A stretch of DNA of 64,000 nt from Hysterangium stoloniferum (Eukaryota > Basidiomycota > Agaricomycetes > Hysterangiales > Hysterangiaceae). The translations under genes and the position numbers were made by a program. The notes beneath the pieces are model-generated. The model ran no database searches, was not told where the DNA came from, and worked only from the letters and a program-made list of their open reading frames with translations. Location of the stretch: assembly GCA_015178975.1 (NCBI GenBank), contig WHVD01000068.1, positions 398,686 through 462,685 on the forward strand, written 5' to 3'. This document shows positions 11,543-52,559 of the stretch, in pieces; within the stretch, counting starts at the first letter, position 1; each line of letters starts with the position of its first letter.

Positions 11543-12306
11543 ATGATTTCTTTTATCTGTCTTTTCAACCTCGTCACCCTACTCTCCTTCGTCTCTGCAG
11601 TTTCCGTGGACAATCCCCGCGACGCCAAGTTACGCGTAGGTTTTTCATTGCCAACATGAGACAATCTACTCACGTTGAGGTCCTCCAGTTCGGCCGCGAT
11701 TCCCATGGAGCTGTCGCTGTGGGCACATTTTCTCCAAGCCCGCGGGATCTAGTTTCCCCCCACAGGCCTCTCTCTGACGAGCCAGACCCAGATCTCCATC
11801 GCAAGGCTCCTTTTGGCGAGCCAGACCCAGATCTCCGTCGCAAGGCTCCCTTTGACGAGCCAGACCCAGATCTCCGTCGCAAGGCTCCCTTTGACGAGCC
11901 AGACCCAGATCTCCGTCGCAAGGCTCCCTTTGACGAGCCAGACCCAGATCTCCGTCGCAAGGCTCCCTTTGACGAGCCAGACCCAGATCTCCGTCGCAAG
12001 GCTCCCTTTGACGAGCCAGACCCAGATCTCCGTCGCAAGGCTCCCTTTGACGAGCCAGACCCAGATCTCCGTCGCAAGGCTCCCTTTGACGAGCCAGACC
12101 CAGATCTCCGTCGCAAGGCTCCCTTTGACGAGCCAGACCCAGATCTCCGTCGCAAAGCTCCTTTTGACGAGCCAGACCCAGATCTCCGTCGCAAGGCTCC
12201 TTTTGGCGAGCCAGACCCAGATCTCCGTCGCAAGGCTCCTTTTGGCGAGCCAGACCCAGATCTCCGTCGCAAGGCTCCTTTTGGCGAGCCAGACCCAGAT
12301 GATTGA
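11543..12306 (+). CDS. secreted tandem-repeat protein, candidate Kex2-processed peptide precursor
   Basis: Exons 11543-11635 and 11689-12306 give 236 residues. The first exon encodes a classic signal peptide (MISFICLFNLVTLLSFVSA) and ends at a GTAGGT donor; the CTCCAG acceptor restores the same frame as the repeats. After a linker of about 40 residues come 13 copies of a 13-residue acidic, proline-rich unit, EPDPDLRRKAPF plus D or G, then a partial 14th and a stop. Each unit from the second carries an Arg-Arg site, which the Golgi protease Kex2 can cleave, so maturation would release near-identical 13-residue peptides such as KAPFDEPDPDLRR. The first unit has His-Arg instead. Fungal precursors of this layout include repellents and ribosomally made cyclic peptides. 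No tailoring enzyme gene was recognised nearby, so a structural or secreted-peptide role is as likely as a modified metabolite. Confidence 0.75.
11776..12303 (+). repeat. 39-bp coding minisatellite, 13.5 units
   Basis: Thirteen units of exactly 39 bp run from 11776 to 12282, plus 21 bp of a 14th. Most interior units are identical at the DNA level. The last few share a TTTTGGC variant, which points to recent unequal exchange. Because 39 is divisible by three, units can be gained or lost without a frameshift. Confidence 0.97.
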
Positions 12307-19758: not shown

Positions 19759-21545
19759 CTTGCCTCCATGGTCTGAACGTATCCTTCATAATTTCAATCC
19801 AGGATGTTGTCGTAAAATATTACATTCATAATGTTTAAATGCCAAAAGGCCCTCCCCTTTATGCTTCAGAAAGGTGAGTTTTGTTTTGTGACTGTAATCA
19901 TCAGTAAAACTGATGTAGTATAGACTCCCTCCTAGGCTTGTAGTTTGTGCTGGTCCCCACAAATCTGTGTGTACAAATTCTCCATACATCTTTGCTCAAT
20001 TTTTCGTTTTCTCTGGCAATGGCTGACATACTGCTTTTGCTTGTGTGCAGGTATTGCAAAATTCTGGTTTAGAGGTAGTGTCAAAATCAACACCTTCAAC
20101 CAGTCCTCCTTTCTTTACAGCATCAAGTATTGCTTCTTGTGATACATACATGTCCCAGAGTTCGATGTAGTGCACATACATATGGTAGGTTTTGATTTTG
20201 CGACATTTGCTTGATGCTGACTATTTGTAGTGATGCTGTATAGTCCATCAATCTGCAGGATTATTGCAATAACCTTCTGATTTTGGGGATAATATCTTGC
20301 ATATTTTGTTTTCAAACAAAATTGTGTATCCTGCTGTTGCAATTTGATTTGCTGAGATGAGTGGGAATGCCATTTTTGGGGTGTAGAGAGATTTTTGAGG
20401 GTAATGGAACTCTTCTTGTCTCCCAATGGTAAGTTTATTTGTACATCTCCTTTTCATATAGCACTAATAGCAGATCCATCTGCAGTGTGCACTTGCTGTG
20501 GGTCCATGGCGGTGAAGGTAACAAATTTTGACCAGTCAGGGCAGAAGTATGATGTGGCACCTGAATCAATAATTGCATCTCATTGGTTGACAGATACATT
20601 CTTAACTCTATCTGTTGAGAATGCATAACGATCTTTGTCTGTTTCAGTAAGTGCATTCATGATTTCCTTCTTTGCACCCTTCTGTTGCCCTTGTTTGGGT
20701 CCTTGACCTTCCTTTCCTCCTCCGGCCCTCCAACAGTCAGCCTTGTAGTGGCCCTTTCTGTCGCAATTGTAACAGGTAATATCCTTGTTACTTGATATGT
20801 GGTCCTTCTTGCCATTTGCCTTTACCATTAAAGCACTATTTCCTCCTTTCTTTGAGGTCCTTTGATCTGTTAATTGACGATGTTCATACTCCTTGGAGAT
20901 GACATTAACCAGTTCATATGGGGTGAGTGGTTGTTTTGTGATATGTGCTGCAGCATTTATTGATGAGAGCAGTGGTCTGTAGGATTCAGGTAATGATCCC
21001 ATTACTATTGCATAAAAATCCTTATCCTCAATATTTGCTCCCATGCCTGATAATGGTTCACAAATTCAAAATAGATTTCTGAAATATACCTTTACATCAC
21101 CTCCTTCATTGCATCTGGGTTCTTGTAGCCTTCAATACAGATCTATTTGTACCAGTTCAGTTTTGCCCTCATGTATGGTACATATCTCTATCCATATCCT
21201 TGAGGCATTATCCAGTCCTTGGACATGCAACAATAGCTGATCTGAAATTGTGCTAAACATGTGTTGTTTGACGAGTGAGTCCTTCTGATAAAACTCATCA
21301 GTTTTCTTTTCTAAGTCTTCTATCTTGCTCAGCGTAAGTATTGATCCACCAGGCTTGATCATTTTTCCCGATGAGTCGATTTCAAATTGGGTTGGTTCCT
21401 TCCTACATCCATCAAGATAATACATCAAACCTCGTGCGCATATCACCATTTTTGCCCTTTCCTTATAGGTTATCCACTTTGAGCCATCTTCGGCAAGCTG
21501 GGGGATGTTATATAATGATGTCGTACTAGAGAGTGTCATATCCAT
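19759..21545 (-). pseudogene. Copia gag, protease and integrase remnants (copy A)
   Basis: From 21545 downwards come a gag N-terminus (WITYKERAKMVICARGL, then LLLHVQGLDNASRIW), a frameshift, the rest of gag with a zinc knuckle CYNCDRKGHYKADC, a protease with the active-site motif IIDSGATSYFCPDW, and an integrase with a CNTC half finger and Asp-containing HTDLWGPAQ and FTDDYSHKTK. The remaining integrase (HNSPQQNGVAERLNQTL) lies beyond the Tc1 insertion near 16930-17080. Several frameshifts and stops inactivate it. Confidence 0.9.
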
Positions 21546-21557
21546 GTTTGTCGGTTC

Positions 21558-21569
21558 GGGCCCATAACC
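21558..21569 (-). promoter_or_regulatory. Copia A primer binding site
   Basis: On the minus strand GGTTATGGGCCC lies 3 bp after the LTR end. This matches the anticodon-stem region of initiator tRNA-Met, the half-tRNA primer site known from Drosophila copia. Confidence 0.7.
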
Positions 21570-21572
21570 TAT

Positions 21573-21756
21573 TGTAGTTTATATTTGAGCAAGTGAGAAC
21601 TAGAAAGATAATAATATTTTGGGTTTTTTCGGACTGATTTATTTGACTGTTGTTTCCTATCCTATATACTATGTACCAGTAATAGTATGTTGCCTGTTCC
21701 ATACTGATTCCTAATTTTTTACTAATGCTATGTTTTATTCTCTATTATAACTGTGT
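21573..21756 (-). mobile_element. Copia A 5' LTR, truncated
   Basis: These 184 bp match the 3' two-thirds of the copy B LTR (35250-35429) in inverse orientation. The outer part is missing, and the sequence abuts the inverted-duplication arm at 21757. Confidence 0.75.
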
Positions 21757-21806
21757 GGAGCTCCGCCTAGACTGTTCCTTGCACTAGTGGTGATGTGACT
21801 AGCCAC

Positions 21807-22103
21807 TTATATTAAACTAGGAAGACATGCCCCTTTCTCTATATAAAAGTCCATATGGAGACTAGATTTGCCTCGTTGTAATTGTATGTAATAGATAGGC
21901 GGTTTGTTTCGGAACCGCGTTAGGTCAAGGGATTTAAGTTTTTTTTTTCCACCGTCGTTGAATGAGAAATGAACAGAGAAAGTATTTACAAACTGTACAG
22001 TCATATGTCTCTCTATGGCGGTCTCACATGTCCTATTACGAAAGGTGATGAGAAATACATAGTTTCTCCCTTTTGGGCTTAGACTAAAGGAAGGATATCT
22101 CAT
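21807..22103 (-). CDS. 98-residue open frame, unrecognised (left arm)
   Basis: The frame opens with MRYPSFSLSPKGRN and runs divergently from the cassette gene. An identical frame exists in the other arm. Preservation follows from the recent duplication and is not evidence of selection. No domain or signal peptide is visible, and it may be chance. Confidence 0.2.
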   Translation of the reverse strand: MRYPSFSLSPKGRNYVFLITFRNRTCETAIERHMTVQFVNTFSVHFSFNDGGKKKLKSLDLTRFRNKPPIYYIQLQRGKSSLHMDFYIEKGACLPSLI

Positions 22104-22318
22104 GGTAGATAGACCTTCTTGGGGCGCCTTTCCTGATCATAGAATCGCGTGCTTGGCTCCTCCCACATGTGGCTCTGCTCAAAAGAATGTCGAAGTAGGC
22201 GAGATGACTATCATTAATTTCATCACAGCCGGTTGCATTGGTTGATAAATGAATTGCTAGAAGCTAGCATCCGAAAAATTATCTGTTTGATTTTGAATAA
22301 GTGTCGAACACGCGGGTG

Positions 22319-22325
22319 TATAAAA
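22319..22325 (+). promoter_or_regulatory. TATA box of the left exon-cassette gene
   Basis: TATAAAA stands 61 bp before the ATG at 22380. It is preserved in the right arm. Confidence 0.6.
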
Positions 22326-22379
22326 CAGCTCACTCTTTCTGCTAAAACACCTTGCCACCCCACACACAATCAACATATT

Positions 22380-23752
22380 ATGATCGCACCCACCACTCCA
22401 CCCGCGCCATCAGTGTGAGTTGCTGATGTCCTCGGTTTATCATATCCCAGACCATCTGTCTTTGTACTGACCACATGATGTCAACGTCTAGACCCTTACC
22501 CCGTATCTATGAAGATGACTCGGGGAGATGCTGGGAAGAATATATGTAAGCTCATATCTAATAGTATTTGTGTTGATGTTAACTTTCTCTTCGCAATCCC
22601 CAGGCCGCCCCGTTATATGTAAGTTTCTCTCTGTAACCATACCGACTATGTGACGACGACGACATCTAGACCCTTACCCCCCATCCATGAGGATGACTCG
22701 GGGAGGTGCCATGCAGGAGACATGTAAGCTCATATCTAATAGTATTTGTGTTGATATTAATTTTCTCTTCGCAATCCCCAGACCGCCCCCCCCTTTTCCA
22801 TTCCGCTACATGTAAGTTTCTCTCTGTATCCGTACCGACTATGTGACGACGACAACATCTAGACCCTTACCCCCCATCCATGAGGATGACTCGGGGAGGT
22901 GCCCAGAATACATGTAAGCGCGTATCTAATAGTATTTGTGTTGATGTTAATTTTCTCTTCGCAATCCCCAGACCACCACCCCCACTTCCATTCCTGTACA
23001 TGTAAGTTTGTCTCTGTAACCATACCGACTATGTGACGACGACAACGTCTAGACCCCTACCCCCAATTGGTGAGGACGAGTCGGTGAGATGTGCGTGTTG
23101 CGGTGCGAATAGGTGAGCTCATGACGCCAATCTGTCCTCAATTGGTAGCATTGATACTAACTAGCTGTCACCACAGGGAACAGGCCAATTACCACGCCTA
23201 CCTGCCCAAGCTCAGGCTGGCGGGACACATGTAAGCTCATATTTAAGAGTATTTGTGTTGATATTAATTTTTCCTTCGCAATCCCCAGACCACTCCCCCC
23301 ACTTCCCCCAGATAGAGACAGGAGTGGTGCCGTGGTTTATGAGACCCCAGTGGATGTGTAAGTATCCCACATTAAGGCAATAACAGCACACTGACCATCA
23401 AATATATATTCGCTTTACAGGAGATACTCGGCCGTGGTGTCCCACAAGGATCCCATTGAAGCTCGAGCGTTGCGTCTCTCCGAGGGTTTGCCCAGGGCCC
23501 AAGCAACTGTACCGTCAAGGTGTGTTGAGGCCACATATAAGTCTTGCAATCCATTGATAATTAATCAAACTCCCTTTCTTGTTACCTTGACAGGTTTATT
23601 TCAGACAGGTCTCAAGTTACCGAGCCTGTTTTCCTTGCAAATGGTCGACGGCGCACTGATGTAAGTGTTAACCAAACAAAGTATTTATTAAACTACTAAT
23701 GCCGCTACAGGAGCGTCACCACCGACCAACCTTTACAGTAAGGTTCCGATAA
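22380..23752 (+). CDS. tandem exon-cassette gene, left copy, 13 exons, 219 residues
   Basis: I do not recognise this gene. Exons 22380-22414, 22492-22545, 22604-22618, 22670-22723, 22782-22811, 22863-22913, 22972-23001, 23053-23112, 23177-23230, 23289-23357, 23421-23519, 23594-23660 and 23711-23752 join without a frame break. All introns but the last are phase 2, most with the donor AT|GTAAG. Two exon types alternate: one encodes PLPPIHEDDSGRC plus a variable tail, the other PPPPxPFRYI. Their introns are nearly identical, so exon plus intron was duplicated as a unit. The unique C-terminus contains RYSAVVSHKDPIEARALRLS and FISDRSQVTEPVFLANGRR. No signal peptide or membrane segment is visible; the product would be proline-rich with regularly placed Cys. 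A TATA box lies upstream. Its end differs by a 1-bp indel from the right copy, giving an earlier stop. Confidence 0.75.
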
Positions 23753-24161
23753 TGCCTTGGGAACACAAAGGTACCCCCCGGGCATAACTGGGACACTTGG
23801 CAATGGACTGGCAGGCGGAGAAACGTCCGCTATCATGTCTGCTTTATCTTTGAATCATTTTTGCAACGGGAGGATCGTAACCTATTGCGCATGTTGGTGA
23901 CAATCGATGGGAAGCGCACTGACCCAAGACATCACCATGCAAATTTTGCGAAGCGTCACGGTTGCGTCACTCATGCATAAATAAAGAATTATGTCATTCT
24001 CGTTTGGGATTGACCTCCGATCTTACCCTATTTCTCTGAAGCTAAATACTGAAGTACATGTCAATGAAAGTAGGTGTCTATGAAAAGGAAAACTGCGTTG
24101 TAGTTTCATTTTCGACCAACCTGATGGTTACCTTACAATTGTGATTTCTTTTGCTCACATG

Positions 24162-24849
24162 ATCCTGAGTTCATACGAGATCACTTTGTGAGTCCTATTT
24201 CAGATTAAATACTATTCTTGTATGTTTTTTTTTTCTTTTGAGAAGGTGCCAATATTCTTTGGGGAGGTAAGGTAAAGGAGAAAAGTGTCAAAAGGGGGTA
24301 ATTGGAAAGAAGGACAACAATGTGCCGCCGGTTTCCTGCTGAAAGTGTTCTTTTGATTTGAGATCCATAGAATACATCTAGCATACCTATTAATGTATAC
24401 TCCCTAGTTTGCCGATGCATTTAATAACCGAATAACATTCCATAACAACAATATGACTTATTTTTCTCCATGTAAATATATACATTTTATTCCAATAGTA
24501 GTATCCATCGCTGACAAAAGCGCTGAGTGCGCCCTTCTGGAGTGGCGAGGAGGGCCGGAATGTGAGCTCATTGTCGTCAGCGACGAGCACGGCAATTCAA
24601 AGCGAGAGCACCATGATGATGTGTGATGCGGCGGGTGGGGGTGAAAGTCCCAACCGATTGTCCATCAAATAAATCGAATACTCACCTGATAATATATAGT
24701 ATAACCCAAAAAAGAGCACACCAACACCGTGAGCATCTTCACCAGCTCGCAAAACAAATATCAGTAAATCCCAACATATGGAGCGTCCCGTTCTCGCAGA
24801 ATTATCGGTGGAAGAGGTCCATCGCAACAAGGGAACAAATTCGCCAAGG
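24162..24849. other. inner flank of left arm, nothing firm
   Basis: Minus-strand pieces such as VLVADDNELTFRPSSPLQKG near 24530-24590 look protein-like but could not be assigned or connected. Confidence 0.3.
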
Positions 24850-25050
24850 GCTACCCACGCCATCATTGTGAGCTGTTGATGGTCTCGATTCAACATATCC
24901 TAGAATGTCTGTCTTTGTACTGACTGTATGCAACATCTAGATCGCTACCCTGCATCCCCAGTGATATTAGGAGCTACCGTGCACGGCTTGGAGAGGTGAG
25001 CTTATGACGCTGGCCTGTCCGCGATCACAGCGTTAGCTATCATGGCCGGG
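24850..25050 (+). pseudogene. diverged third relic of the exon-cassette gene
   Basis: An exon end (CCATCATT), then GTGAGCTGTTGATG, then CTGTCTTTGTACTGAC and CAACATCTAG closely follow the first intron of the left copy. Near 25000, GGTGAGCTTATGACGCTGGC resembles the intron after its eighth exon. The cassettes between them are missing. It therefore looks like a shortened, diverged paralogue. Confidence 0.55.
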
Positions 25051-26714
25051 TTGAAATATTGACCACCAATGATTGACGTAAACGGTATGTATCGCATCAA
25101 CCAGTACAAGCTATAGAGATCGCGGGGATGGTCAAACGTGACCGTATGCGTTTTTACACGGGCTCAAATTATGTAGCTTTATACAATGTACTAATCCGGC
25201 TGCAAAGTGAGTCAAGTAAAGGGCAACGGGAATATGCTCCTCCTAACTTGGTTGAAATGTGTCGACGTTCCAATAGAAAAGATTATAAATCGTACCAAAT
25301 TGACGGAGAAAGACCCGAGGTTTCGCCAGGCCAACCATGTCCATCCAACACTGACATGGAGTTCGACGTAGACTTTACCGACATACCGGTGAGTGGTGTG
25401 GGGACGACGCAAAACAAGGAATGAGCGATGAGATCTAAACTTTCAAGGCAGCTACGGATGGATTGGTGGTTGATCGAGCCGCGCATTGCGTCACAATGTG
25501 AAAGGAGACAAGGAGAATGGCGATGGTATTGAGGCTGCGCACTGTGGTACATGCAAACTTTTAATACAGCTCAGCAATATCTCGAAACCATACATCTTGG
25601 TGGATGCAAAACTGTACACGATCTTCATAAAACCAACGTTGCTGGCGTCATGGTTTTCGTCAGCAGAATGTAAAAATATGATGTCGCGACGTACGGTTGT
25701 ACCCAGAATTCAAAGTAACCTCTGATCGCAGTGAGTTCCTCCACAGACAGCTGACGCACGTGGGGGGTCTTTTGCACGACACACTTAAGGCCGATAACGA
25801 GGAAGGAACCTTGACTATGCAAGCCTGTTAAATAGCGGGCGATTTGTACGATAAATGTTGATGTAACCTCATCGGAATTAATGTGTAGCGCTGATTTGAT
25901 CACAGTGTTATAAAGTGACGACGTAATTGCAGGTGACGTGTCTGACTCTCTATCCCACCATCGAGTGCTGGGAGACCTTGAGGGTTAATCTTACTTTTAT
26001 CGCTGCATAGTGTGATCTTTGTTCCTCCGCTGCATAGACTGAGTTATCCCTACCTCATTAAATCAGTGCTCTTGAATTATTATTCTCAGCCTTGACAGCC
26101 TGAGATATTTATGTATAAACTCCTTGTCTCAGTGATCTGTTCCCGTTCCTCTGAGTTCAATACACCAGGGGAAACCATGGGTGGTAGCTCCTCAACGCCT
26201 TTAAGGAGTCTCAGCCTGTACCATATCGTGGTTGCTCAGTCGCCTCGTTGGAAGTAGACATCGGTGGGTAGCAGTAAAAGTCACACCAGAAGGGGATGCT
26301 CCACTGTAAGGCGCGACCTCACTTTCCAGGTTTAGGGTCCAGTTCCAGGATACTCTCAAGTAATCTTACTAATTTCTTACCCTGGTTTCTTACATTTCGC
26401 CTACCGACGAAAGCACACATAGCAGCTAATAATAGTTAGTGAGTTGTCACCGCATATTTGGGAAGTGACATTGTCATATAAAACAAGAATGCAATACCTT
26501 ATCTGAAATGCCACTCCGAGTAATTGTTTGGCCTCATTTGGAGATCGAAGCAGAACAAATAAGGATATCGTCTATTGAGGGAGAAACTTTTGGTGTATAC
26601 AACCAGGTCGCAAACAGTAGAACGAAGGATATATACTCTATAGTAAGATCTTGGATCAATCTAGCCGTGGTCTGCCGGCTTGACAGGGTGATCACTGATT
26701 AAACATCACGAAAG
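25051..26714. other. gene-poor interval downstream of hem25
   Basis: A 98-codon open frame at 25128-25424 (MVKRDRMRFYTGSNYV onwards) has no recognisable domain. Nothing else is supported. Confidence 0.3.
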
Positions 26715-28157
26715 TCATGCTACAGCTGGACGAAGTCGGGTGCGATTGTGGATGAAGAGTAGAGTGCCTTCGTAAACAGCCCAGCCAATTGCCGAGCTGA
26801 GTACTTTTCGAGATAATCTAAGAGAGATGCCGTCGAAAAAACCTCGAAGGCCTCGATCCTGCGAGAAGGGCAGAGGATAAGCAAGACATGCAACTGTTTA
26901 GCTCAGCTCAACGCACGGTCCATATAGTTCGTACAGTGCTTCTAAGTGTGTGGTATTTATCTCCATTACGTACCTGCAATCGTGTCTAAGAGAGCAATAA
27001 ATTCGCCTTCTTAAGGCAGGCTAAGAACCCTGTTAAACGTACTTTAAGTACGTCAAATGGGTGCGTGAGTAGTGTCGCAGCTGTTCCAGCGCCGGCGCCA
27101 GCAAAACCGTTTATAACAATCATAGACGAATTCGTTAGGGGGTTGAACAGTATGCCTACTCCGCGTTATTAATAATGGGTAATGTGGACGGTAGCAAGAT
27201 TCGAATTACCACTTTCGTGTTTAAGGTGCTCATATGTCATTAGAAAAAGTCCTGCATATGGAGCGTCCCGCATTACAGATGCAGCAGCGCCGCGGAAGAG
27301 CTGTGATGGCCCGGATTTTATCAAGGAACTAAAGGCTTCCCATAAACTGCGATATGCGTATAGATCACTCTTAAACGGCGGGGTAAGCTTGATATAAGTC
27401 GAGACGAATGGCAAGCTTTACTTCGTAACGAGCTTTTAAAATTGCTAAAGGATTCAGGAGCGTTCCTACTGCTGATCTGGTCTAGAGAGCAACAATGAAA
27501 AAGAAGAAAAAAAAGCGCAAATCGGCAGTGCATTCGTCGAAAACATAGACTTACGACTGCGCCTGCCAACAAATTCCCTTGGAGCGTGAGAGAAGGTAGA
27601 ACCGATGACGAGGATCCAGATGCTGGACGCATCTTTGTGAAATATGTTGTCCCTGCCATGACGACTCTGACCTGGTTCAGAGTAGACATGTACAATGCCA
27701 CACCAGGCACATTCCTATACCACATGTATTAATAAGTATTAAGCAGATCGCCTTCAAATATAAATCACACTCCGTACCGTGCCAGCGTTGGTAATGTGCC
27801 GCGCCACAAGCCAAAAACTCCGTGTGTGTCTACAACGTTACGAGCAATGCTTATGATTCCTGGAACACGCCTACTTGGAATGAGATGGATATATCATTGA
27901 AGTAGAAAATATGAACCCTTGCAGGTGATGTGAAGTATCATAGCCCTGCTGCATTCGCGTTTTGAGGAGGTCGACTGCGACAGTTAGTAAATGATGATTG
28001 TTTATTGTGAAAGGTAGGATTTAAAGCCGTCGTACATGGCTGGAGACATATTACTGAAGTGAGACCGGATAGTGCGCCTTGTAGAAATGCGGTTTGAGAG
28101 AGATGAATTAGATGAAAAAGAGACTTTACCTGAAGCCAGATGTTGACTGTAGCTCAT
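26715..28157 (-). CDS. HEM25: mitochondrial glycine carrier Hem25 / SLC25A38 homologue, 10 exons
   Basis: Exons 28130-28157, 28036-28077, 27917-27974, 27778-27873, 27555-27714, 27422-27481, 27210-27369, 27043-27155, 26917-26985 and 26715-26858 join perfectly into 309 residues, the size of yeast Hem25. This inner-membrane carrier brings glycine into mitochondria for the first step of haem synthesis. The three carrier signatures are present: QPFDLLKTRMQQ, NPLAILKARYE (a non-acidic second motif, typical of this subfamily) and HPFDVLKTRLQ. Subfamily blocks include LWRGTLPTLARNVPGVALYM, GPSQLFRGAAASVMRDAPYA and GLRGFFDGISLRLSRKVLSS. Exons as short as 28 and 42 bp and a 43-bp intron are unusual, but the frame is consistent throughout. 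It looks functional, unlike the neighbouring pds5. Confidence 0.93.
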
Positions 28158-28400
28158 TCGAGTCCACAGTGACCTTCTCTTTCTACACTCCTCTCTGTGT
28201 GCCAAGTGCAATATCACAAGTACGATTAGCTAGAAGCTGGTAATAAAGATAACTGTTGTAGCTGGGAGTCAAGTGAAAGAGAAGGTTAAGTAGCGCTAGC
28301 AGCATGGGTCGACGCGAAGCGCCACTGGACGTCACGTGAATTCTCGCGGCAATGGAATCATAATATAATATAATTTGTTTTAAATTGATAGACTTGGGCT

Positions 28401-31130
28401 CTATACGTTGACAACCTTCAACGCCACCTCCTCGTTTTCCTTCATATTCCCAATTATGCGTGCTGCGAACTTCGCATGTCTTGCACTTGCTCCCAAAGCA
28501 TACTTGGTGATACGGTCTTTTGTGCGCCTACACCCATATCATTTTAATTATCTTCATCGGAGATGGAAGATATTACACACTTCTCATTCGCCTCCCAGCC
28601 CAAAGCTCCCAAGGCCTGCAACGATACCTCAATCAACTTCGGGTTCTTCTTGGCCAATGATTTAATAAGCTCGGCTACATGCGGCCTATAGAGGGCCGGG
28701 TAATGCTTTGAGATCCAAGCGAGGGCATGCTTGGCGATACGACCATATCTTTCGATATCGCCGATGTCAGCATCATTTGCTTCGGTTTCAGAAACAGATG
28801 CATGTGTAATGCGGCGGAGTAGTGACGGTATTGACGATGTGTTCAATGTCCAAAGACTGCGTCTGCGGAGTATAACAGACATCGTACCGACAATCGATGA
28901 TGATGCTGTTCAATCCGATGGAGGAATTCGTTCTGTACGGTCGATGGGTAGAAAAGGCGGGCGTAGGTAAGCGCGGAAAGCTCACGTATGATTTTACGAG
29001 CATCTTCAGATCGGTTTGTATATCCATACATATTTTGAGCAACTCGTACAATCGGCCTTCGTTGAGTTTCGCGAATGAATGCAGATCTTCTTCTGCTTTA
29101 ATACGATCGGGAATTGAGCTGATTTGACAATGAGTAAATTATCAGAATACAAGGCTGTGCATCGAAAGTGCGACTTACTTGCTAATCGGTCAACAACAAC
29201 TTTTAGTTTGTGTTTGACAACGTCAGCGTCGATTACGCCACCCTGCCGGAAATGAGAAACTGGAGACTGTGGGTGCTTACAAGCTTACATTGTTCTCACA
29301 GATCTGAACAAAGCGCTCAAATAATGTTGGACGGCTGTCGCCGCGTTAGAGAAAGTTAAAACTTCCAATATGAAAGAAACCTACGACTGTTTAACATTGC
29401 TCATGATCAATACCACATTCATTGCACGATGGTCCACGTGTCTCAAAACGCTCAATAATTGGTCGGTCCAAGTCGCTTGGTCCTCTCCCTTGGAAGGTAA
29501 CGGAAGAATAAATTGATAGATAAAACATTCCACCATGTGTCTACGGATATGATTGTTAATCTACCTTAACCTCAGGAAAGAAAATTGCATACCTAGTTTC
29601 ATTATTTGCTGCGGCAGCATGAAGAAGTACCTCAGGGATCCAACAGAATTGGGATATAGCCGCGGCGTCAGAGTGTTCTCTACGAGGTTATATCGTTAGG
29701 GAAGTTTTCGCATAGATCCCGAATCGAAAGACTCACATCTCGGGCCTAGCCAGGCTGTACAACTTGCCAAGAGTCTGCATGGCTTCTGCGCGGACAGAAT
29801 ACTACAAAAGAAGGCTTCTGTTAAGACATACATCAGAACGCGGGAGTAATCTTCACCTGTTTATCCATACAACGTTCACCGACAGTTCGCAGTTGGGGTT
29901 TCGGTAACATGGTGTAGCGCTGTTTCGTAGTCTAATTGTGAATATAGCTTGCAAGTGGCAGCCCGGACTTTGTCATCCATGTCAAGCAATTTTGTTCGGA
30001 GCAACTCTGTAATAACTAATCAATGTGATAGTAAATGTGGAAATAGCCTTCGATGGACTGCCGTAGATCAGGGTGATGCGTGATGACCCCCCTGCACGCC
30101 GCTACAAAAGCGATGCGAACGCCAGCCATTTTATCTGATCGACGGAATTGCCAGACTTCCCATACGTGAGGATACGTTTTGGATAATTCCGTGCCGCTCT
30201 TGTCAGCGAACATTTCTCCGAGAACTTGGGTGGCAAGCAGACGAATCTCATACTCGCTAACCTTGAGCTCCTCCTCCAATTTTGGTGCAACATTATGGAG
30301 TAAAGAAGGGAAATCTCGATGGGTTTTCTTGATCAAATCATGAGCGGTGCGGATTTCAGCGAAGTCGTCATCGTCTTTCGAATGTTGAACTATGATATCA
30401 GGGAAGTATTGGCAAACATAGCGCTGAAGTTTATCCACAGTGGCATTGCATACTTCGACAGCTAATCGATATGCGGGTTCGTCCATACGCGCATTTTGAT
30501 CGAGAAATTACTTCATCAGGGTTTCCAGAACTGTGTGGCACGGTTTGACATTCGTCAATAAGCGCGCCGAGTATATCACTCGTACACAGCTCAATTTTTT
30601 TAGCCAGATCATTGCGAACAACCATGAATAAATCATGAAAGATTTTGGCCATGAGATCGTCCGCCTGAGGTAGATCACAGACAAGCACTACGCTCTTGAC
30701 TACAAAGACTCCAGAAGTAGGAAATATTAGTTGTAATAGGGAGAATTGGTGCCCTTGAGGCCCGTAGAGAGTTGGCTAAAGAAAAACTGAAAAATATCGC
30801 GTAGTTCATCAGCTGTATAGGGTGCGTCGGGTGCAGCCTGAGAATGTCGGCCAGACAGCAGGCAACATAGGCCTTCACGCCTTTGTCTTTATGAAGGAGA
30901 ATAGGAACCTGGATGAGCTCCTTCCTAACCATGATAGTGATTTCACGTCGACGCGTTCCTGCTCCATTTCAGCCAACTCCTGCTGTAAACTCTGGAGTTT
31001 CTTGAGAAGTGCATCTGTGGAGTAGCCTTTGCCAACTAATTTGTCCTTGAATTGAAGTTTCTTGGGTGCCACTGTGACGGTCGAGCCTCCTCCTCTGGTC
31101 TTGGCCACGGATACAAGCAGGACACGCGTG
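28401..31130 (-). pseudogene. pds5: cohesin regulator Pds5, broken and 3'-truncated
   Basis: Pds5 binds the cohesin ring and controls sister-chromatid cohesion. Its N-terminal HEAT-repeat region is recognisable in order: KLVGKGYSTDALLKKL, VRKELIQVPILLHKDKGVKA, LPQADDLMAKIFHDLFMVVR, YRLAVEVCNATVDKLQRYV, YEIRLLATQVLGEMFADKSG and, last, ITKYALGASARHAKFAARI. Typical splice sites survive in places. Disabling changes include a 1-bp loss before VRKEL, a shift after ADILRL, a TAA after SPYYN and a shift plus TAA near LETLMK. The expected start codon reads GTG. Homology stops at 28401, so roughly the C-terminal third to half is missing. A functional copy must exist elsewhere, since Pds5 is generally needed. 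Confidence 0.88.
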
Positions 31131-31855
31131 GAGAAAGTATGCAAGGTGACCAAGTTGACCGACGCGTGGTGTGACACTAGTAGAGAGTATGTGCAACTAA
31201 TATATATTAGCCAACTGAATGGCGTACCTGATATGAATATCAGGAATTAATTCAGTTTGCTAATATTTCATTAGTTGCAAATACTTTCAGCGAAACACTT
31301 CGCAGTTGGGAATAAATACAGAGCAATTCTTTAATATGGGGGATCATTGATACAGCTTCATTGTAAGCTATGGAGATATCAGTAACTTGTTTTGCTGCTC
31401 CGAGTCCAGACATTTGAACTTTGCAGACATCAACGGCGGACTCCTGTCTTCCTAGCTTGCTGGATGTCTAACAGGAGACTTTCGAATGAACTCGAATGCC
31501 CTGACTCAAGTTGGTTAGTGGTTATTTCAAGCCTAATGTAGGTGAATAACATACTACTCGGTTTGCAAGGTGATATGTTGGACCGGTGCGTTGTTTACTG
31601 TCTCCCATCGATCATCACGTGATGCGTAATAGCTTTGTCGCAAAAAAAAAAAAGAAAGGATTACGTACAAAGGTAAATACTAAATAAAAAGCACGCATAC
31701 ATGGTTAACAACTTGTGTCCATACTCCAGAATATTACACGTAGGTGGGCGTTGTAGTAGGGAAAGTAAGGAGCTGACCGACATTACAGCGGACGTTTCTC
31801 CAACTGCCGCCTTGACGGTACAATCACTCGCCTTGACGGCACAATTACTTACCTT
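31131..31855. other. 5' flank of pds5 relic, with an unidentified minus-strand fragment
   Basis: Minus-strand 31530-31300 can be read as protein-like pieces such as DVCKVQMSGLGAAKQVTDIS, unassigned. Sequence at 31560-31830 is a diverged direct repeat of the 3' region of the right cassette gene (compare 32080-32310), for example GACAGCGGACGTTTCTCC-like blocks. Confidence 0.35.
31189..31277. repeat. imperfect 90-bp palindrome (fold-back)
   Basis: TGCAACTAATATATATTAGC on the left pairs with the reverse complement of GCTAATATTTCATTAGTTGC on the right. The centre is CCTGATATGAATATCAGG. It could be a miniature fold-back element just upstream of the pds5 relic. Confidence 0.65.
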
Positions 31856-32321
31856 GTGTGAGCAAAAGAAATCACAATTGTAAGGTAACCATCAGGTTGG
31901 TTGAAAATGAACTACAACGCAGTTTTCCTTTTCATAGACACCTACTTTCATTGACATGTACTTCAGTATTTAGAGAAATAGGGTAAGATCGGAGGTCAAT
32001 CCCAAACGAGAATGACAGAATTCTTTATTTATGGATGAGTGACGCAACCGTGACGCTTCGCAAAATTTGCATGGTGATGTCTTGGGGTCAGTGCGTTGTG
32101 CTGCTTCCCATCGATTGTCACCAACATGCGCAATAGGTTACGATCCTCCCGTTGCAACAAGGATTTATATACAAGGGTAAATACACGGTTAACAATTTGT
32201 GTCCAGACTACATGCTTCGCGGAGGTGGTAGGAGAAAAAGTTGGGAGCTGAATTTTGAAAGATAAAGCGAACATGACAGCGGACGTTTCTCCGCCTGCCA
32301 GTCCATTGCCAAGTGTCCCAG

Positions 32322-34125
32322 TTATGCCCGGGGGGTACCTTTGTGTTCCCAAGGCATTATCGGAACCCTAAGGTTAACGTTTGGTCGGTGGTGACGCTCC
32401 TGTTTATGTAGCGGCATTAGTAGTTTAATAAATACTTTGTTTGGTTAACACTTACATCGGTGCGCCGTCGACCATTTGCAAGGAAAACAGGCTCGGTAAC
32501 TTGAGACCTGTCTGAAATAAACCTGTCAAGGTAACAAAAAAGGGAGTTTGATTAATTATCAATGGATTGCAAGACTTATATGTGGCCTCAACACACCTTG
32601 ACGGTAAGGTTGCTCGGGCCCTGGGCAAACCCTCGGAGGGACGCAACGCTCGACCTTCAATGGGATACTTGTGGGACACCACGGCCGAGTATCTCCTGTA
32701 AAGCGAATATATATTTGATGGTCAGTGTGCTGTTATTGCCTTAATGTGGGATACTTACACATCCACTGGGGTCTCATAAACCACGGCACCACTCCTGTCT
32801 CTATCTGGGGGAAGTGGGGGGAGTGGTCTGGGGATTGCGAAGGAAAAATTAATATCAACACAAATACTCTTAAATATGAGCTTACATGTGTCCCGCCAGC
32901 CTGAGCTTGGGCAGGTAGGCGTGGTAATTGGCCTGTTCCCTGTGGTGACAACTAGTTAGTATCGATGCTACCAATTGAGGACAGATTGGCGTCATGAGCT
33001 CACCTATTCGCACCGCAACACGCACATCTCACCGACTTGTCCTCACCAATTGGGGGTAAGGGTCTAGATGTTGTCGTCGTCACATAGTCGGTACGGATAC
33101 AGAGACAAACTTACATGTAGCGGAAAGGAAAAGGGGGGGGCGGTCTGGGGATTGCGAAGAGAAAATTAATATCAACACAAATACTATTAGATATGAGCTT
33201 ACATGTATTCTGCCCGGCACCTCCCCGAGTCATCCTCATGGATGGGGGGTAAGGGTCTAGATGTTGTCGTCGTCACATAGTCGGTATGGTTACAGAGAGA
33301 AACTTACATGTAGCGGAATGGCATTGGGGGGGGTGGTCTGGGGATTGCGAAGAGAAAGTTAACATCAACACAAATACTATTAGATATGAGCTTACATGTA
33401 TTCTGCCCGGCACCTCCCCGAGTCATCCTCATGGATGGGGGGTAAGGGTCTAGATGTTGTCATCGTCACATAGTCGGTATGGTTACAGAGAGAAACTTAC
33501 ATGTAGCGGAATGGCATTGGGGGGGGCGGTCTGGGGATTGCGAAGAGAAAGTTAACATCAACACAAATACTATTAGATATGAGCTTACATGTATTCTGCC
33601 CGGCATCTCCCCGAGTCATCCTCATGGATGGGGGGTAAGGGTCTAGATGTTGTCGTCGTCACATAGTCGGTATGGTTACAGAGAGAAACTTACATGTAAC
33701 GGAATGGCATTGGGGGGGGTGGTCTGGGGATTCCGAAGAGAAAGTTAACATCAACACAAATACTATTAGATATGAGCTTACATGTATTCTGCCCGGCATC
33801 TCCCCGAGTCATCCTCATGGATGGGGGGTAAAGGTCTAGATGTTGTCATCGTCACATAGTCGGTATGGTTACAGAGAGAAACTTACATATAACGGGGCGG
33901 CCTGGGGATTGCGAAGAGAAAGTTAACATCAACACAAATACTATTAGATATGAGCTTACATATATTCTTCCCAGCATCTCCCCGAGTCATCTTCATAGAT
34001 ACGGGGTAAGGGTCTAGACGTTGACATCATGTGGTCAGTACAAAGACAGATGGTCTGGGATATGATAAACCGAGGACATCAGCAACTCACACTGATGGCG
34101 CGGGTGGAGTGGTGGGTGCGATCAT
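32322..34125 (-). CDS. tandem exon-cassette gene, right copy, 17 exons, 288 residues
   Basis: Minus-strand exons are 34091-34125, 33960-34013, 33887-33901, 33782-33835, 33694-33723, 33589-33642, 33501-33530, 33396-33449, 33308-33337, 33203-33256, 33115-33144, 33004-33063, 32886-32939, 32759-32827, 32597-32695, 32456-32522 and 32322-32399. They join into an open frame with four PLPPIHEDDSGRC plus PPPPxPFRY cassettes against two in the left copy. Cassettes are 54 + 30 bp of exon, separated by introns that are almost identical among repeats. The C-terminus is longer than in the left copy (RPNVNLRVPIMPWEHKGTPRA). Preserved frame and splice sites in both copies argue that it is, or recently was, a working gene. 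Function is unknown. Confidence 0.75.
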
Positions 34126-34401
34126 AATATGTTGATTGTGTGTGGGGTGGCAAGGTGTTTTAGCAGAAAGAGTGAGCTGTTTTATACACCCGCGTGTTCG
34201 ACACTTATTCAAAATCAAACAGATAATTTTTCGGATGCTAGCTTCTAGCAATTCATTTATCAACCAATGCAACCGGCTGTGATGAAATTAATGATAGTCA
34301 TCTCGCCTACTTCGACATTCTTTTGAGCAGAGCCACATGTGGGAGGAGCCAAGCACGCGATTCTATGATCAGGAAAGGCGCCCCAAGAAGGTCTATCTAC
34401 C

Positions 34402-34698
34402 ATGAGATATCCTTCCTTTAGTCTAAGCCCAAAAGGGAGAAACTATGTATTTCTCATCACCTTTCGTAATAGGACATGTGAGACCGCCATAGAGAGACAT
34501 ATGACTGTACAGTTTGTAAATACTTTCTCTGTTCATTTCTCATTCAACGACGGTGGAAAAAAAAAACTTAAATCCCTTGACCTAACGCGGTTCCGAAACA
34601 AACCGCCTATCTATTACATACAATTACAACGAGGCAAATCTAGTCTCCATATGGACTTTTATATAGAGAAAGGGGCATGTCTTCCTAGTTTAATATAA
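34402..34698 (+). CDS. 98-residue open frame, unrecognised (right arm)
   Basis: Identical at protein level to the frame at 21807-22103 in the left arm. No function is suggested by the sequence. Confidence 0.2.
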   Translation: MRYPSFSLSPKGRNYVFLITFRNRTCETAIERHMTVQFVNTFSVHFSFNDGGKKKLKSLDLTRFRNKPPIYYIQLQRGKSSLHMDFYIEKGACLPSLI

Positions 34699-34745
34699 GT
34701 GGCTAGTCACATCACCACTAGTGCAAGGAACAGTCTAGGCGGAGC

Positions 34746-35149
34746 TCCATTCCGCTCGTTTATGTTTTTCATAACAGCATTGATATAGTTGAATATTACC
34801 ATACCCTTGTAGTAGTCGGCCTTTTCCAGTGCTGTAAATGTGGCGCTGTTACATAAAGTCGTGTGGGCTCACGTGATGAACAGCCCTTTGCATTACGTAA
34901 GGTGGCGCGGGAAATATTGCTGAAAATTGCGAACCTTGTACCTCTCTCAATAATTGACCAATTGCCTTGTAACTTTATATACATATTTTACTTATTGTTG
35001 TGATCTAAAGTGGGAGCCAGCTGTGACCACAGGTGACAGACAGGCATCCATGGCAACAGGTGCAGGCCATTACAAAAGACTAGCTAAGGTACAAAGAAAA
35101 ACAGTTGTAGGAAATGAAAGAGGGATGGTGGGTGGGAAATAAAAAGAAC
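34746..35149. other. junction between inverted arm and Copia B LTR
   Basis: There is no gene. A purine-rich stretch (about 35108-35147) ends right before the LTR start and looks like a polypurine tract, so this could be the 3' end of another Copia copy sharing the LTR. Confidence 0.35.
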
Positions 35150-35429
35150 TGTTGAGGATGCTGTAAGCATCCTGTGAGATGGGAGATGAAGAGTGTTGAG
35201 ATTGTCGGAGTTTGAAGTCGGAAATCGGACGCGGAATAAGTCCAAGCACAGTTATAATAGAGAATAAAACATAGCATTAGTAAAAAATTAGGAATCAGTA
35301 TGGAACCGGCAACATACTATTACTGGTACATAGTATATAGGATAGAAAACAACAGTCAAATAAATCAGTCCGACAAAACCCAAGATATTATTATCTTTCT
35401 AGTTCTCACTTGCTCAAATATAAACTACA
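35150..35429 (+). mobile_element. Copia B 5' LTR, about 280 bp
   Basis: It starts TGTTGAGGATG and ends AAACTACA, just before the primer site. The end is confirmed by copy A. The start is inferred from the TG and the preceding purine tract. Confidence 0.65.
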
Positions 35430-35432
35430 ATA

Positions 35433-35444
35433 GGTTATGGGCCC
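35433..35444 (+). promoter_or_regulatory. Copia B primer binding site (initiator tRNA-Met half)
   Basis: GGTTATGGGCCC, 3 bp after the LTR, is complementary to the anticodon stem-loop side of initiator tRNA-Met, as in Drosophila copia. Confidence 0.7.
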
Positions 35445-35457
35445 GAACCTACAAACA

Positions 35458-36406
35458 TGGATATGACACTCTCTGGTATGCCATCATTATATAACATCCC
35501 CCAGCTTGCCAAAGATGGCTCAAACTGGATAACCTATAAGGAAAGGGCAAAAATGGTGATATGCACACAAGGTTTGATGCATTATCTTGATGGATGTATG
35601 AATTAACCAACCCAATTTGAAATCGACTCATCGGGAAAAATGATCAAGCCCGATAGATCAATACCTATGCTGTGTGAGATAGAAGACTTAGAAAAGAAAA
35701 CTCATGAGTTTTATCAGAAGGACTTACTCGTCAAAGAACATATGTTTAGCACAATTTCAGATCAGCTATTGTTGCATGTCCAAGGACTGGATAATGCCTC
35801 AAGGATATGGACAGAGATATGTACCATACATGAGGGCAAAACTGAACTGGTACAAATAGATCTGCATTGAAGGCTACAAGAAACCAGATGCAATGAAGGA
35901 GGTGATGTAAAGGTATATTTCAGAAATCTATTTTGAACTTGTGAATCATTATCAGGCATGGGAGCAAATATTGAGGATAAGGATTTTTATGCAATAGTAA
36001 TGGGATCATTACCTGAATCCTACAGACCACTGCTCTCATCAATAAATGCTGCAGCACATATCACAAAACAACCACTCACCCCATATGAACTGGTTAATGT
36101 CATCTCCAAGGAGTATGAACATCGTCAATTAACAGATCAAAGGACCTCAAAGAAAGGAGGAAATAGTGCCTTAATGGTAAAGGCAAATGGCAAGAAGGAT
36201 CACATATCAAGTAAAAAGATATTGCCTGTTACAATTGCGACAGAAAGGGCCACTACAAGGCTGACTGTTGGAGGGCTAGAGGAGGAAAGGAAGGTCAAGG
36301 ACCCCAACAAGGGCAACAGAAGGGCACAAAGAAGGAAATCATGAATGCACTCACTGAAACAGACAAAGATCGTTATGCATTCTCAACAAATAGGGCTAAG
36401 AACATA
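35458..36406 (+). pseudogene. Copia B gag remnant
   Basis: Gag begins MDMTLSGMPSLYN-like and continues with SDQLLLHVQGLDNASRIW and MGANIEDKDFYAIVMGSLPE. An in-frame TAA near 35604 and frameshifts break it. The zinc knuckle seen intact in copy A is split by a frameshift here. It is cut by a solo LTR at 36407. Confidence 0.88.
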
Positions 36407-37779
36407 TGTTACGACCGTGTCGCAACCCTATCGGTCCCGAGGTTATTGCCACCTATCCATGTTTCAAGTCACCATCTCGGAAACCATCGGCCCCGAAGCT
36501 GACGTATGTTTTCGCGAAGATCAAACTCCGTCTACGCCCACGTCAAAATAACTCGTATTGTCTGGTCAAACTTTGATACGTCCCCTTTTATTATGTTGAT
36601 CCATTCAATCTTATGTTTCACATATGTCTATCTATATTTGTAGTCCTTGAACCATTTCCTTTTATCGTAATCCCGCTCTCAGTTATCATCGGTGTGAAGA
36701 GTCGATAGATTCTGACCGTTCAATATACGAAGAATAGTGTTTATTCAACTACTATTAGCAGGTATTGACCGTACAGTACAATACCGTAGATTACTAGACA
36801 AGCAGTACTAGTAAGAAGACACGCTATGCGTCACAAGAGCAACTGTACAGTTGCTCTTGACGGCTAGAATGAAAGAATGAAAGAGTTGACCTTCACGGTA
36901 CAACTCGTAGCTAGATGTAAAATAGATAATCAACGCGAAGCTGAATATCTAGAGTAAAGAGATAGTAGTGCGAGTCGACTATAATGTCGACTAGCGCAAA
37001 GACCTTAGAGTGGAACTCGACCTTCACGGTTCGAGTCCAAAGTATGTTAGTATGCGAGAGAATACTACCTTTATAGGTAGTTGAGACGTTACCCTTGACA
37101 CCTCTCACTATTCGACGTCTGGGTCGTTTACGAGGTGGTGTCTGCTGGGTAAAAAGTGTCTATCGTTTTGGCGCCGAGAGCGCCCATACGTATACACAAA
37201 GCTTCGAACTACAAAATAAGGGTATGCTCGAAATATAGAAAGAATGTAAAGAAAGAAAATAAAAGATAAATAATAAAGTACTATAATCCAACTATTATTC
37301 CTTAGTCCAATTATGCATGTATGCATACCCTTTACAATCGGCCTCCGAACTAATCACAAACCTCCCGTTCCTAGTCAAGCTTATTGTTAATACCATTTTC
37401 CGCCCTTCTCCCCATTAGTATTTTCTAGATGCCTGTTACTTGTATATGAACCCACTGTAGTTGTAGTTACTAGGCAATCAGAATATCGACTCAGAATACC
37501 CTCATACGTCTGTAACAGTCTCGTACTAAGAATCCCCCATCCGCCTTTGCGTGCGCTCGCCCACTCCCGGCCCTGAACCCCTTGGCCCGACGCTCGACTT
37601 GTCCTTCGGTTCCAATCGGTATCTCGCCGAGAGGAGCTCTTTAGGATTAGTCTTCGCCTGCCCGAAATTTAAGGACACCCTACAGATATTTGTGAGGGCG
37701 CAGCACATAAGCTGAAGCCAAGTCCTTCCGATCGGTCCCTGTCGGCCACCGACATTTAGTCAGTTTTCAGTTCTTAACA
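36407..37779. mobile_element. solo LTR in Copia B, itself interrupted; imperfect TSD ACATA/ATGTA
   Basis: It begins TGTTACGACCGTG and ends TTCTTAACA. Flanks are ACATA and ATGTA, differing by two transitions; copy A has ATGTA at this spot. Without the nested LTR and its duplication it is about 720 bp. Confidence 0.75.
36693..37336. mobile_element. nested solo LTR, 644 bp, TSD ATCGG
   Basis: It starts TGTGAAGAGTCG and ends CCCTTTACA, between ATCGG at 36688-36692 and 37337-37341. Confidence 0.88.
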
Positions 37780-50181: not shown

Positions 50182-51029
50182 CAACAGAAAAAAGAGGCGA
50201 CGGAGGACCATTGGTCGTTTATGCATCGAATGGCAGTGCGTGTTAGAATATAGGGTTGTGCGAGCATGCATAAGGTGCTACACCGGCAATTTGCCACCCC
50301 ATTGTTCCGCGTAACCTTTTGTTGCCATACGTCTATTGTTCTCAAGGCGTATATAACTAGTATAGATTTTTGTATTTACGCTATCCGTTTGCCTCCTACG
50401 AGACACAGAGGGTCAATCGGAAATCACATTCGTCCTTGTTTCTGATTGTTGCGAGCTTCGAGATTTTATTTTCAATGCAAACGTCGTCGCCAAAGCTGAA
50501 ATGGCGCTCAGGAGGGTATCTAATTCATATATTATAGGTGAGCATCTCAGTTTCGATTACACAGATTATAGCCTTATTCTTCTCGCTGGTTATAATAGAT
50601 CAAACACTGTCGTCACATCCTTATTGTAGCTGTAGTATTTCTTTTAGAAGTTGTATCATTTCATCTTACCTTTGTATCCATGTCCGGTCATCATATTAAT
50701 CTACTTTTTTCTTGGGAAGCTCATTTGGCGTTATGGCGTCACATAGTCAAGGTTAATGGCAGTGCTCCTGATATGGATTCGACCTGCATACACCCAATGT
50801 GCCATCTTGGGCCGTGACCTTTGTGTCACTCGGATGACACACCGGAATGTAGAGGACTTGAATCACGGGTCCGCGGTGGTTGAGCTGCACTTTTGATGGC
50901 TCTACGTATTCTTCTTAATCACTTGCCTCAACGATGAATGATGTCTCGGACGACGAATGCAGATTGCGAGCAACAGAAAAAAGAGGCGACGGAGGACCAT
51001 TGGTCGTTTATGCATCGAATGGCAGTGCG
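50182..51029 (+). repeat. 59-bp direct repeat pair (50182-50240 and 50971-51029)
   Basis: Both copies begin CAACAGAAAAAAGAGGCGAC and end GGCAGTGCG without a mismatch. The second copy forms most of the spacer of the fold-back at 50471-51536. Confidence 0.95.
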
Positions 51030-51536
51030 ATGCTCAGCTCGCAATCTGCATTCGTCGTCCGAGACACCATTCATCGTTAAGGCAAGTGGTTAAGAAGAAT
51101 ACGTAGAGCCATCAAAAGTGCGGCTCAACCACCGCGGACCCGTGATTCAAGTCCTCTACATTCCGGTTTCATCCGGGTGACACTAAGGTCACGGCCCAAG
51201 ATGGCACATTGGGTGTATGCAGGTCGAATCCATATCAGGAGCACTGCCATTAACCTTGACTATGTGACGCCATAACGCCAAATGAGTTTTCCCAAGAAAA
51301 AATTAGATTAATATGATGACCGGACATGGATACAAAGGTAAGATGAAATGATACAACTTCTAAAAGAAATACTACAGCTACAATAAGGATGTGACGACAG
51401 TGTTTGATCTATTATAACCAGCGAGAAGAATAAGGCTATAATCTGTGTAATCGAAACTGAGATGCTCACCTATAAGATATGAATTAGATACCCTCCTGAG
51501 CGCCATTTCAGCTTTGGCGACAACGTTTGCATTGAA
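50471..51536. repeat. fold-back inverted duplication, arms about 500 bp
   Basis: Arms are 50471-50970 and 51038-51536 with a 67-bp spacer. The right arm covers the last codons and 3' flank of the zinc-finger gene; the left arm is the inverted duplicate. Arms differ by scattered substitutions and small indels. Confidence 0.93.
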
Positions 51537-52559
51537 ACTGATGCCTCCTAAAGGAATCTTCTCGCAAGAATATCCTAGAGCAACAGTAAAAGGCCTTGGT
51601 TTCTTCCACATTTGATTTTTGGTTATGAGCGCGCAGCGATTCACGATGTTGTTTGGTTTTGGTGTTGTGCCGTTTGAGGTCATCTTTGCGTGTGAATGTG
51701 ACATTGCAAAGTGAACACCTGTGCTGTGTTGCGGAGGAGATGGACGTATCTGTGATCCCGCTTGTTGGAATACCAGAAGCAGATGGGGCCGTTTGGTGCT
51801 TTGGCTTCTTACTGCGACGAACGCCCTGGGCTGACTCCTTGGTCGGTTCCTCCTCATCGTCAGTCTCCACGCGCTTAGACTTCCGACTGACCAGTCTCGC
51901 AGGCTCATTACCATCATTGAAACCCTCCATCTGCGCCTTCAACAAAACACTCGCGCGGGCAGCCGCTCGCCGCTGCTGGACAAGAGGCCGCAGTACCTCT
52001 TGAGCATCCCCCATCGCCTGCGACGTGAATGACGCGGTATCGTCAGACCGATCATCCTCTACGAACACGGCCGAAGTCTTGACAGCACTCCTCGGTGTTG
52101 ATACTGACGACTCTGAGCTCGTTGAGGGAGTTGTCGCGGTCTTGAATCGTCCCTTGACGGTACATGATTCCCTCCCTTCTTCATCGTCCGCGTCCAACCC
52201 CATGAAAATATTGAAGTTAATTGAAGGTCTCACACCCCCTGCACTCTCTGGTGACTCTATATGAGCGCTAGGGGTGCTCTAAGGGAGGTTTTAGGGGAAA
52301 AACAAATGAAGAGTAGTCAATTGTAACTCACTGCTAATTGCCCTTGTAAAAATGACAGAGACGACCCACTTTGAGGCTGGTTTGCAAATTCTCTTGCTTC
52401 CCTAGAGCGCTTTGCAGCAATGGGGCGCATCTCCAGTAGATCATCGTCCATGGAAATAAACTCGTTGATTGCTTGGAGGATGGTGTGAGAGAGCAGTGTG
52501 GGATTTGCCGCGGCTGAGAAGATGCTGTTGGGTGGGGTGTGTATGGCAGAGAATAGCAT
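51508..52559 (-). CDS. C2H2 zinc-finger protein, 2 exons, 332 residues
   Basis: Exons 52332-52559 and 51508-52278 join in frame across a 53-bp intron (GTGAGT...CTTAG). The C-terminus holds a C2H2 finger with spacing C-x2-C-x12-H-x6-H (CSLCNVTFTRKDDLKRH) near residues 263-286 and a degenerate second finger (FYCCSRIFLREDSFRRH) near 305-327. The rest is Ser/Thr- and charge-rich, including VETDDEEEPTKES and a basic patch GVRRSKKPKH that could be a nuclear signal. A sequence-specific DNA-binding regulator is the likely role; the target is unknown. Its last codons and 3' end are duplicated in inverted form next door. Confidence 0.82.

Follow-up and report, generated by a model that had tools for sequence, protein, structure and literature searches.

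The subject of this report is a family of genes built from very small exons in Hysterangium stoloniferum, a truffle-like ectomycorrhizal fungus of the Phallomycetidae with a sequenced genome (PMC7550596). The analysed stretch of 64 kb, hereafter the window (C520:398686-462685; the assembly comprises 554 contigs and 111.1 Mb), harbours two inverted gene copies, a left one (L) and a right one (R), and a DNA search of the genome revealed four more, one on contig C30 and three on contig C93 (C93a, C93b and C93c), as well as short matches on C268. These genes probably constitute a lineage-specific protein-coding family of H. stoloniferum, in which an array of two-exon cassettes forms the variable part, cassettes are gained and lost by unequal exchange, and the product is a diversifying, proline-rich binding protein. 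The part of this explanation that concerns gene structure is very likely correct.

Exon-intron organization of the gene copies

The left copy (22380..23752, forward strand; public model BU17DRAFT_67678, P0003) comprises 13 exons that encode 219 amino acids, while the right copy (32322..34125, reverse strand; BU17DRAFT_67681, P0001) comprises 17 exons encoding 288. A first-pass annotation of this DNA had described both as open spliced frames of 660 and 867 nucleotides (nt), which is borne out with the stop codons included and with GT-AG borders at all 28 introns (12 in L, 16 in R). Each of these introns is in phase 2, except for the final one of either copy, which follows a 67-nt exon and is in phase 0. 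The repeating unit consists of a 54-nt exon, a 58-nt intron, a 30-nt exon and a 51-nt intron, amounting to 193 base pairs (bp), and this period is visible in R with 90-93% identity over 300 nt. Full cassettes number two in L, one of them with a 51-nt in place of the 54-nt exon, and four in R; in addition, each copy contains one pair of a 54-nt and a 15-nt exon, giving three and five pairs in total. Hence, both the alternation of 54- and 30-nt exons between phase-2 introns and the two extra cassettes of the right copy, as proposed in the first-pass annotation, are confirmed, with the 54/15 pair as an addition. The internal exons of L, R and C93b measure 15-99 nt and are multiples of three save for the 67-nt one.

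In L, all on the forward strand, pair 1 (22492..22618) encompasses a 54-nt exon (22492-22545), a 58-nt intron and a 15-nt microexon (22604-22618), followed by cassette 2 (22670..22811; 54-nt exon 22670-22723, 30-nt exon 22782-22811) and cassette 3 (22863..23001; 51-nt exon 22863-22913, 30-nt exon 22972-23001). The constant part of the gene (23053..23660) contributes exons of 60, 54, 69, 99 and 67 nt. The same order is found on the reverse strand in R, where pair 1 (33887..34013; 54-nt exon 34013-33960, 15-nt microexon 33901-33887) precedes cassettes 2 (33694..33835), 3 (33501..33642), 4 (33308..33449) and 5 (33115..33256), the last being nearest to cassette 2 of L (96.9%), and a constant part (32456..33063) with the same five exon lengths. 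The stretch before the ATG of L (22313..22379, forward strand) contains TATAAAA (22319-22325), which lies 55 nt ahead of the start codon; the same motif precedes the ATG of R, and TATAAA that of the C30 and C93 copies, the label TATA box being assigned by eye.

For comparison with the public protein models, splice paths that reproduce them were sought; these are fitting paths, not deposited coordinates, and where a path is incomplete or contains zero-length exons close to its 3' end, use was made of its 5' and cassette portions only. The path for P0002 equals our model of C93b in all 17 exons. The path for P0001 agrees with R in the first 11 of 17 exons and in the 69-, 99- and 67-nt exons, and differs by having 38 and 82 nt instead of 60 and 54 nt as well as another last exon. 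For P0003, the first 12 exons agree with L and the 3' part was left unreproduced (218 of 284 amino acids matched); P0005 was likewise reproduced incompletely. The 15-nt exon is included in the paths for P0001 and P0003, and cassette exons are used in those for P0001, P0002 and P0003.

Gain and loss of cassettes

The number of cassette pairs differs between close paralogues, with three in L and five in R, and four, five and two in C93a, C93b and C93c, respectively; C30 has two. These counts support the proposal of the first-pass annotation that exon and intron were amplified together with retention of the frame. A tree of the 21 cassettes from the six copies, with strong support for only three of its 17 inner branches, separates the ten cassettes of the C520 and C30 copies from the eleven of C93 (support 100/99). 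Within the former group, L_1 pairs with R_1 (98/100), L_2 with R_5 (94/95) and L_3 with C30_2 (93/78), while within the latter the first cassettes group together (90/90), as do the last ones (98/94). Moreover, R_2, R_3 and R_4 are 97.4-98.4% identical to one another and have no partner in L, and C93b_3 and C93b_4 are 99.5% identical at a place where C93a has a single cassette. From these pairings and identities it follows that gain or loss of cassettes postdates the separation of the gene copies, and the high identities mark the change as recent. For C93b, gain of a cassette appears the simplest reading, and for the difference between R and L, gain in R and loss in L both fit.

Unequal exchange between near-identical 193-bp units would be the route by which whole cassettes are added or removed. 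Since the exons of a standard cassette are multiples of three enclosed by phase-2 introns, any such change keeps the frame.

Distribution of the family

A second, diverged subfamily resides on C268, and further pieces were found on C118 and C67. The one C268 gene that was spliced has 14 exons, 13 of 13 introns in phase 2 and an open frame; it matches the public model P0007 with 99% identity, the model having two exons that are 6 nt shorter. Its DNA identity to the main family is 66-77% in matching stretches, and the C268 cluster repeats a larger block of about 765 bp (spacings 763 and 765). Protein searches with family queries returned 6, 3 and 10 matches, all from H. stoloniferum, their reach being relatives with shared exact five-residue words and, for two of the queries, the best 8000 candidates. 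Within this reach the family appears, as far as tested, to be an orphan. An origin as assembly artefact is unlikely because the C30 and C93 copies differ from the window copies and from one another.

Sequence variation in cassettes and constant part

Comparison of the 20 full-length 54-nt exons over 17 codons revealed that codons 1, 2, 3, 5, 7, 8, 10 and 11 are invariant in amino acid, five of these eight varying synonymously, while codon 14 encodes seven different residues (W, H, R, N, E, D, A). Each cassette is described by a conserved protein pattern, PLPxIxED-SG, plus one hypervariable residue. The repeat was previously called Cys-bearing, which is not a trait of the family, as the residue is serine in the 11 C93 cassettes among these 20 exons.

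In the 14 of 21 cassettes whose two exons measure precisely 54 and 30 nt (seven were dropped), 30 of 84 exon sites are variable as opposed to 20 of 109 sites in their own introns, an about twofold excess whose p value of 0.008 is optimistic because the cassette rows are related. Similarly, divergence between the groups is 22.8% in the first 54-nt exon, compared with 6.3% and 10.9% in its introns. In the constant part, introns differ by 0.029-0.041 between the C520 and C93 groups, and exons by 0.052-0.075 at nonsynonymous (dN) and 0.079-0.092 at synonymous sites (dS), corresponding to dN/dS ratios of 0.66-0.83 (six pairs with few changes each, from five of the six copies, C30 being left out). 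The downstream flank of L differs from that of two C93 copies by 6.4-8.3%.

A hypervariable core near the 3' end

A second site of variation is a core of 12-15 bp between CACCACCGACCAA and GGTTCCGATAATGCC near the 3' end of the genes, of which 15 distinct versions occur in 16 copies. It occupies 12 bp in L, between conserved flanks (23730..23741, forward strand), and 13 bp in R (32368..32380, reverse strand). The same 16 copies were obtained with three substitutions allowed in each flank and with the downstream motif alone; a genome scan with the exact pattern found 11, against none for the control. In a first list of 14 copies, the mean pairwise difference was 0.47 for 13-bp and 0.36 for 15-bp cores, and 0.05 and 0.07 for the respective flanks, most of which were demanded by the search pattern itself. 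Among close C93 copies, the core differs at 2-6 of 13 bases and the remainder at 5-8 of about 740 (p 0.0055 to 2e-8). The near flanks are common to both subfamilies and are read in different frames, as ERHHRP in P0002 and SVTTDQ in P0007.

A non-coding RNA reading of window positions 21000-36500 was rejected, as a scan of this interval with Rfam gave no family at the gathering threshold and the core with its flanks folded no better than shuffles in seven of seven sequences (z -0.82 to 0.88).

The core might also indicate a locus that diversifies at two levels, in which unequal exchange tunes cassette number, each cassette supplies a hypervariable codon and the 3' core is rewritten by targeted change of a short exon segment, the whole serving as a variable recognition system for self/non-self or symbiosis. 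Such a scheme is highly doubtful; to our knowledge, a system for targeted rewriting of short exon segments would be the first in a fungus.

Protein features and putative function

The intact copies encode proteins with 18-21% proline. At the cassette joints the heptapeptide RYIPLPP is formed, five times in R, twice in L and three times in C93b, and fits RxxPxxP, which we take to be the class I SH3 ligand pattern. In R, this pattern occurs five times compared with a shuffle mean of 1.6, a count reached by 35 of 2000 shuffles. Each cassette would add one such proline ligand (R-Y-I-P-L-P-P), so that cassette number would set valency; this notion of a multivalent ligand is a tentative one. The product itself would be a disordered, proline-rich binding protein that is not classically secreted, and the family would be under pressure to diversify in the recognition of a partner, a host or self and non-self.

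No match above the cut-off was obtained for five family proteins in Pfam, leucine-rich repeats (LRRs) included; DUF6296 appeared in two of them with E values of 0.055 and 0.02, below its own cut-off. A search of PDB yielded no relative at E values up to 1. The ectomycorrhizal habit of the species, together with the orphan and fast-evolving character of the family, would suit classically secreted, host-directed effectors. Against this, a hydrophobic N-terminal stretch was not found in seven proteins, the highest nine-residue mean hydropathy within the first 40 residues being 0.42-1.06 (a measure of hydropathy, without a dedicated signal predictor, and one that concerns the classical route of secretion only), which makes an effector family quite improbable.

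Damaged copies and points against the proposed family

Part of the evidence weighs against a diversifying family of functional genes. Exons of the 30-nt type have frame-shifting lengths in three of the six copies (C30, C93a and C93c), C93c has lost one acceptor by a change from AG to AA, and C30 contains a 73-nt exon where others have 69 nt, besides other insertions; lesions such as these raise the possibility that some members are in decay. The public gene models may be ab initio, and the splicing described here is predicted from sequence. As to selection, an excess of synonymous variation in the coding frame is only suggestive (p=0.086, compared with 0.81 and 0.84 in the other frames). Furthermore, dS in the 54-nt exon reaches 0.42, with a dN of 0.23 and an intron divergence of 0.076. 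Since dS of the same exons is high as well, selection on the protein alone gives an incomplete account, and simple strong positive selection is not claimed. The RxxPxxP count falls short of significance in L, where 447 of 2000 shuffles reach it, and in C93b (168 of 2000), and the description of the product as putatively disordered is drawn from composition.

The lesions in the 30-nt exon are associated with a run of C, which has a length of eight in 12 of 21 cassettes, while runs of 9, 13, 10 and 9 in C30, C93a and C93c accompany exons of 34, 35, 32 and 31 nt; these lengths may alternatively stem from homopolymer errors in the assembly. The damage, together with the copia-type gag fragments that adjoin L and are common to R and C30, and with a decayed remnant of the 5' part of another family member (24853..24984, forward strand) that recurs downstream of C93 copies, could be understood if the copies were a decaying repeat family, spread by segmental duplication among transposons, in which cassette differences reflect neutral drift of pseudogenes. 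This is unlikely: three copies, located on two contigs, have uninterrupted frames, their codons are constrained at the protein level yet synonymously variable, and the C268 relative, with its DNA identity of 66-77%, still splices into an open frame and matches a public model.

The damaged copies also bear on the tolerance of the frame. The paths that fit the public models omit one exon each of C93a (35 nt), C30 (34 nt) and C93c (60 nt; 204 of 212 amino acids were matched by this path), the exon in question being either altered in length or situated behind the lost acceptor. As the standard exons are symmetric, skipping of a damaged exon keeps the frame. In C93c (C93:72500-79500), the consecutive microexons of 32 and 31 nt are both read in the public-model path, and since their length shifts cancel, a different open frame is used for the intervening exon. 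Omission of exons may be either real skipping in the cell or the predictor's doing. The former would agree with a gene for diversity by alternative splicing, in which cassettes are optional and isoforms differ by the symmetric exons included, as in schistosome micro-exon genes (MEGs). The symmetry of the standard cassette exons and the three omissions speak for it; however, the omissions may represent a predictor's bypass of lesions, and no cassette exon is missing from the L, R and C93b paths. Isoform diversity of this kind is conceivable, though we would not expect it, and a family diversified by whole cassettes is preferred here.

Genomic setting

The window contains an inverted segmental duplication, with a left arm at 20599..24159, bearing the gag fragments at its outer end, and a right arm at 31857..36402, which has an extra stretch at about 34750-35246; aligned as 20599-24159 against 36402-31857, the arms are 93-97% identical. 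Between them, two open stretches (28544-30486, reverse strand) match the PDS5 cohesion protein (Pfam PF20168). Elsewhere in the window, a 39-bp tandem repeat (11768-12300; 13.7 copies, 97%) leaves several frames open on both strands, and its unit in one of them, APFDEPDPDLRRK, is without a Pfam match. A stretch of 1.1 kb (50470-51537) and its reverse complement match at 93.6%, as in a fold-back element or palindrome. Finally, a 2.9-kb inverted repeat of 99.9% identity (57990-60917 and 61074-64000, spacer of about 156 nt) reaches the window edge and is either a recent duplication or an assembly fold-back.

Comparison with known systems and implications

The earlier statement that no described family has such a pattern found no support, as Tetrahymena LRR, aphid bicycle and schistosome MEG genes share the architecture (PMC6564038, PMC9168663, PMC4350168). 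A fungal family of this build was not among the open PMC matches listed, judged by title and start of the abstract.

The LRR genes of Tetrahymena contain arrays of 90-bp exons with phase-2 introns, amounting to tens of thousands of exons, and resemble the present family in tandem small exons of equal size, in their young, species-specific character and in the unequal crossing over proposed for them (PMC6564038). Their unit is a one-exon LRR in a ciliate, whereas the unit in Hysterangium is a two-exon, proline-rich one, found in few genes of a fungus and without LRR match. In aphid bicycle genes, small internal exons are numerous and almost exclusively in phase 2; the encoded proteins are fast-evolving orphans, and a large related gene was built by internal tandem duplication (PMC9168663). 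The same phase prevails in all but the last intron of L, R and C93b and in all 13 of the C268 gene. Similarity to bicycle proteins was not found within the reach of the exact-word searches, which returned H. stoloniferum only and included no direct comparison with a bicycle protein. Bicycle proteins carry a two-cysteine motif and are secreted, while those of Hysterangium are without a hydrophobic N-terminus and the cysteine of their cassettes is unconserved.

Schistosome MEGs consist of very small symmetric exons, with exon duplication in one MEG family and a symmetry that permits splicing variants (PMC4350168), and most of the coding sequence of L, R and C93b likewise lies in very small symmetric exons. 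The MEGs encode secreted parasite proteins with differential splicing, whereas the seven Hysterangium proteins examined by hydropathy have no hydrophobic N-terminal signal, and differential use of their exons is hypothetical. Among fungal symbionts, the SP7-like effectors of arbuscular mycorrhizal fungi share hydrophilic tandem repeats and a family partly recognised by intron structure; they differ in a feature before the first repeat that is common to all SP7-like genes, and one exon per repeat is not described in the available part of that account (PMC11333574). Searches with exact five-residue words, without a direct SP7 comparison, gave no match outside H. stoloniferum and hence none in Glomeromycotina. 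For the 3' core, the nearest described pattern is the accelerated segment switch in snake toxin exons, in which short exon segments become unrelated sequence (PMC2474615, PMC2711939); the genes are unrelated animal ones and the likeness is one of pattern only.

Taken together, genes of this general architecture have been described before, and what is new is the cassette of two exons, its occurrence in a fungus and the 3' core. The family extends the architecture of symmetric phase-2 exons to a fungus, and, if transcribed, it would offer a natural and compact example of how a protein lengthens and shortens by whole exon-intron units. Because paralogues with different cassette counts stand side by side, gain and loss of exons become measurable and selection on cassette number can be addressed, while the hypervariable core raises the separate and testable question of how short exon segments get rewritten.

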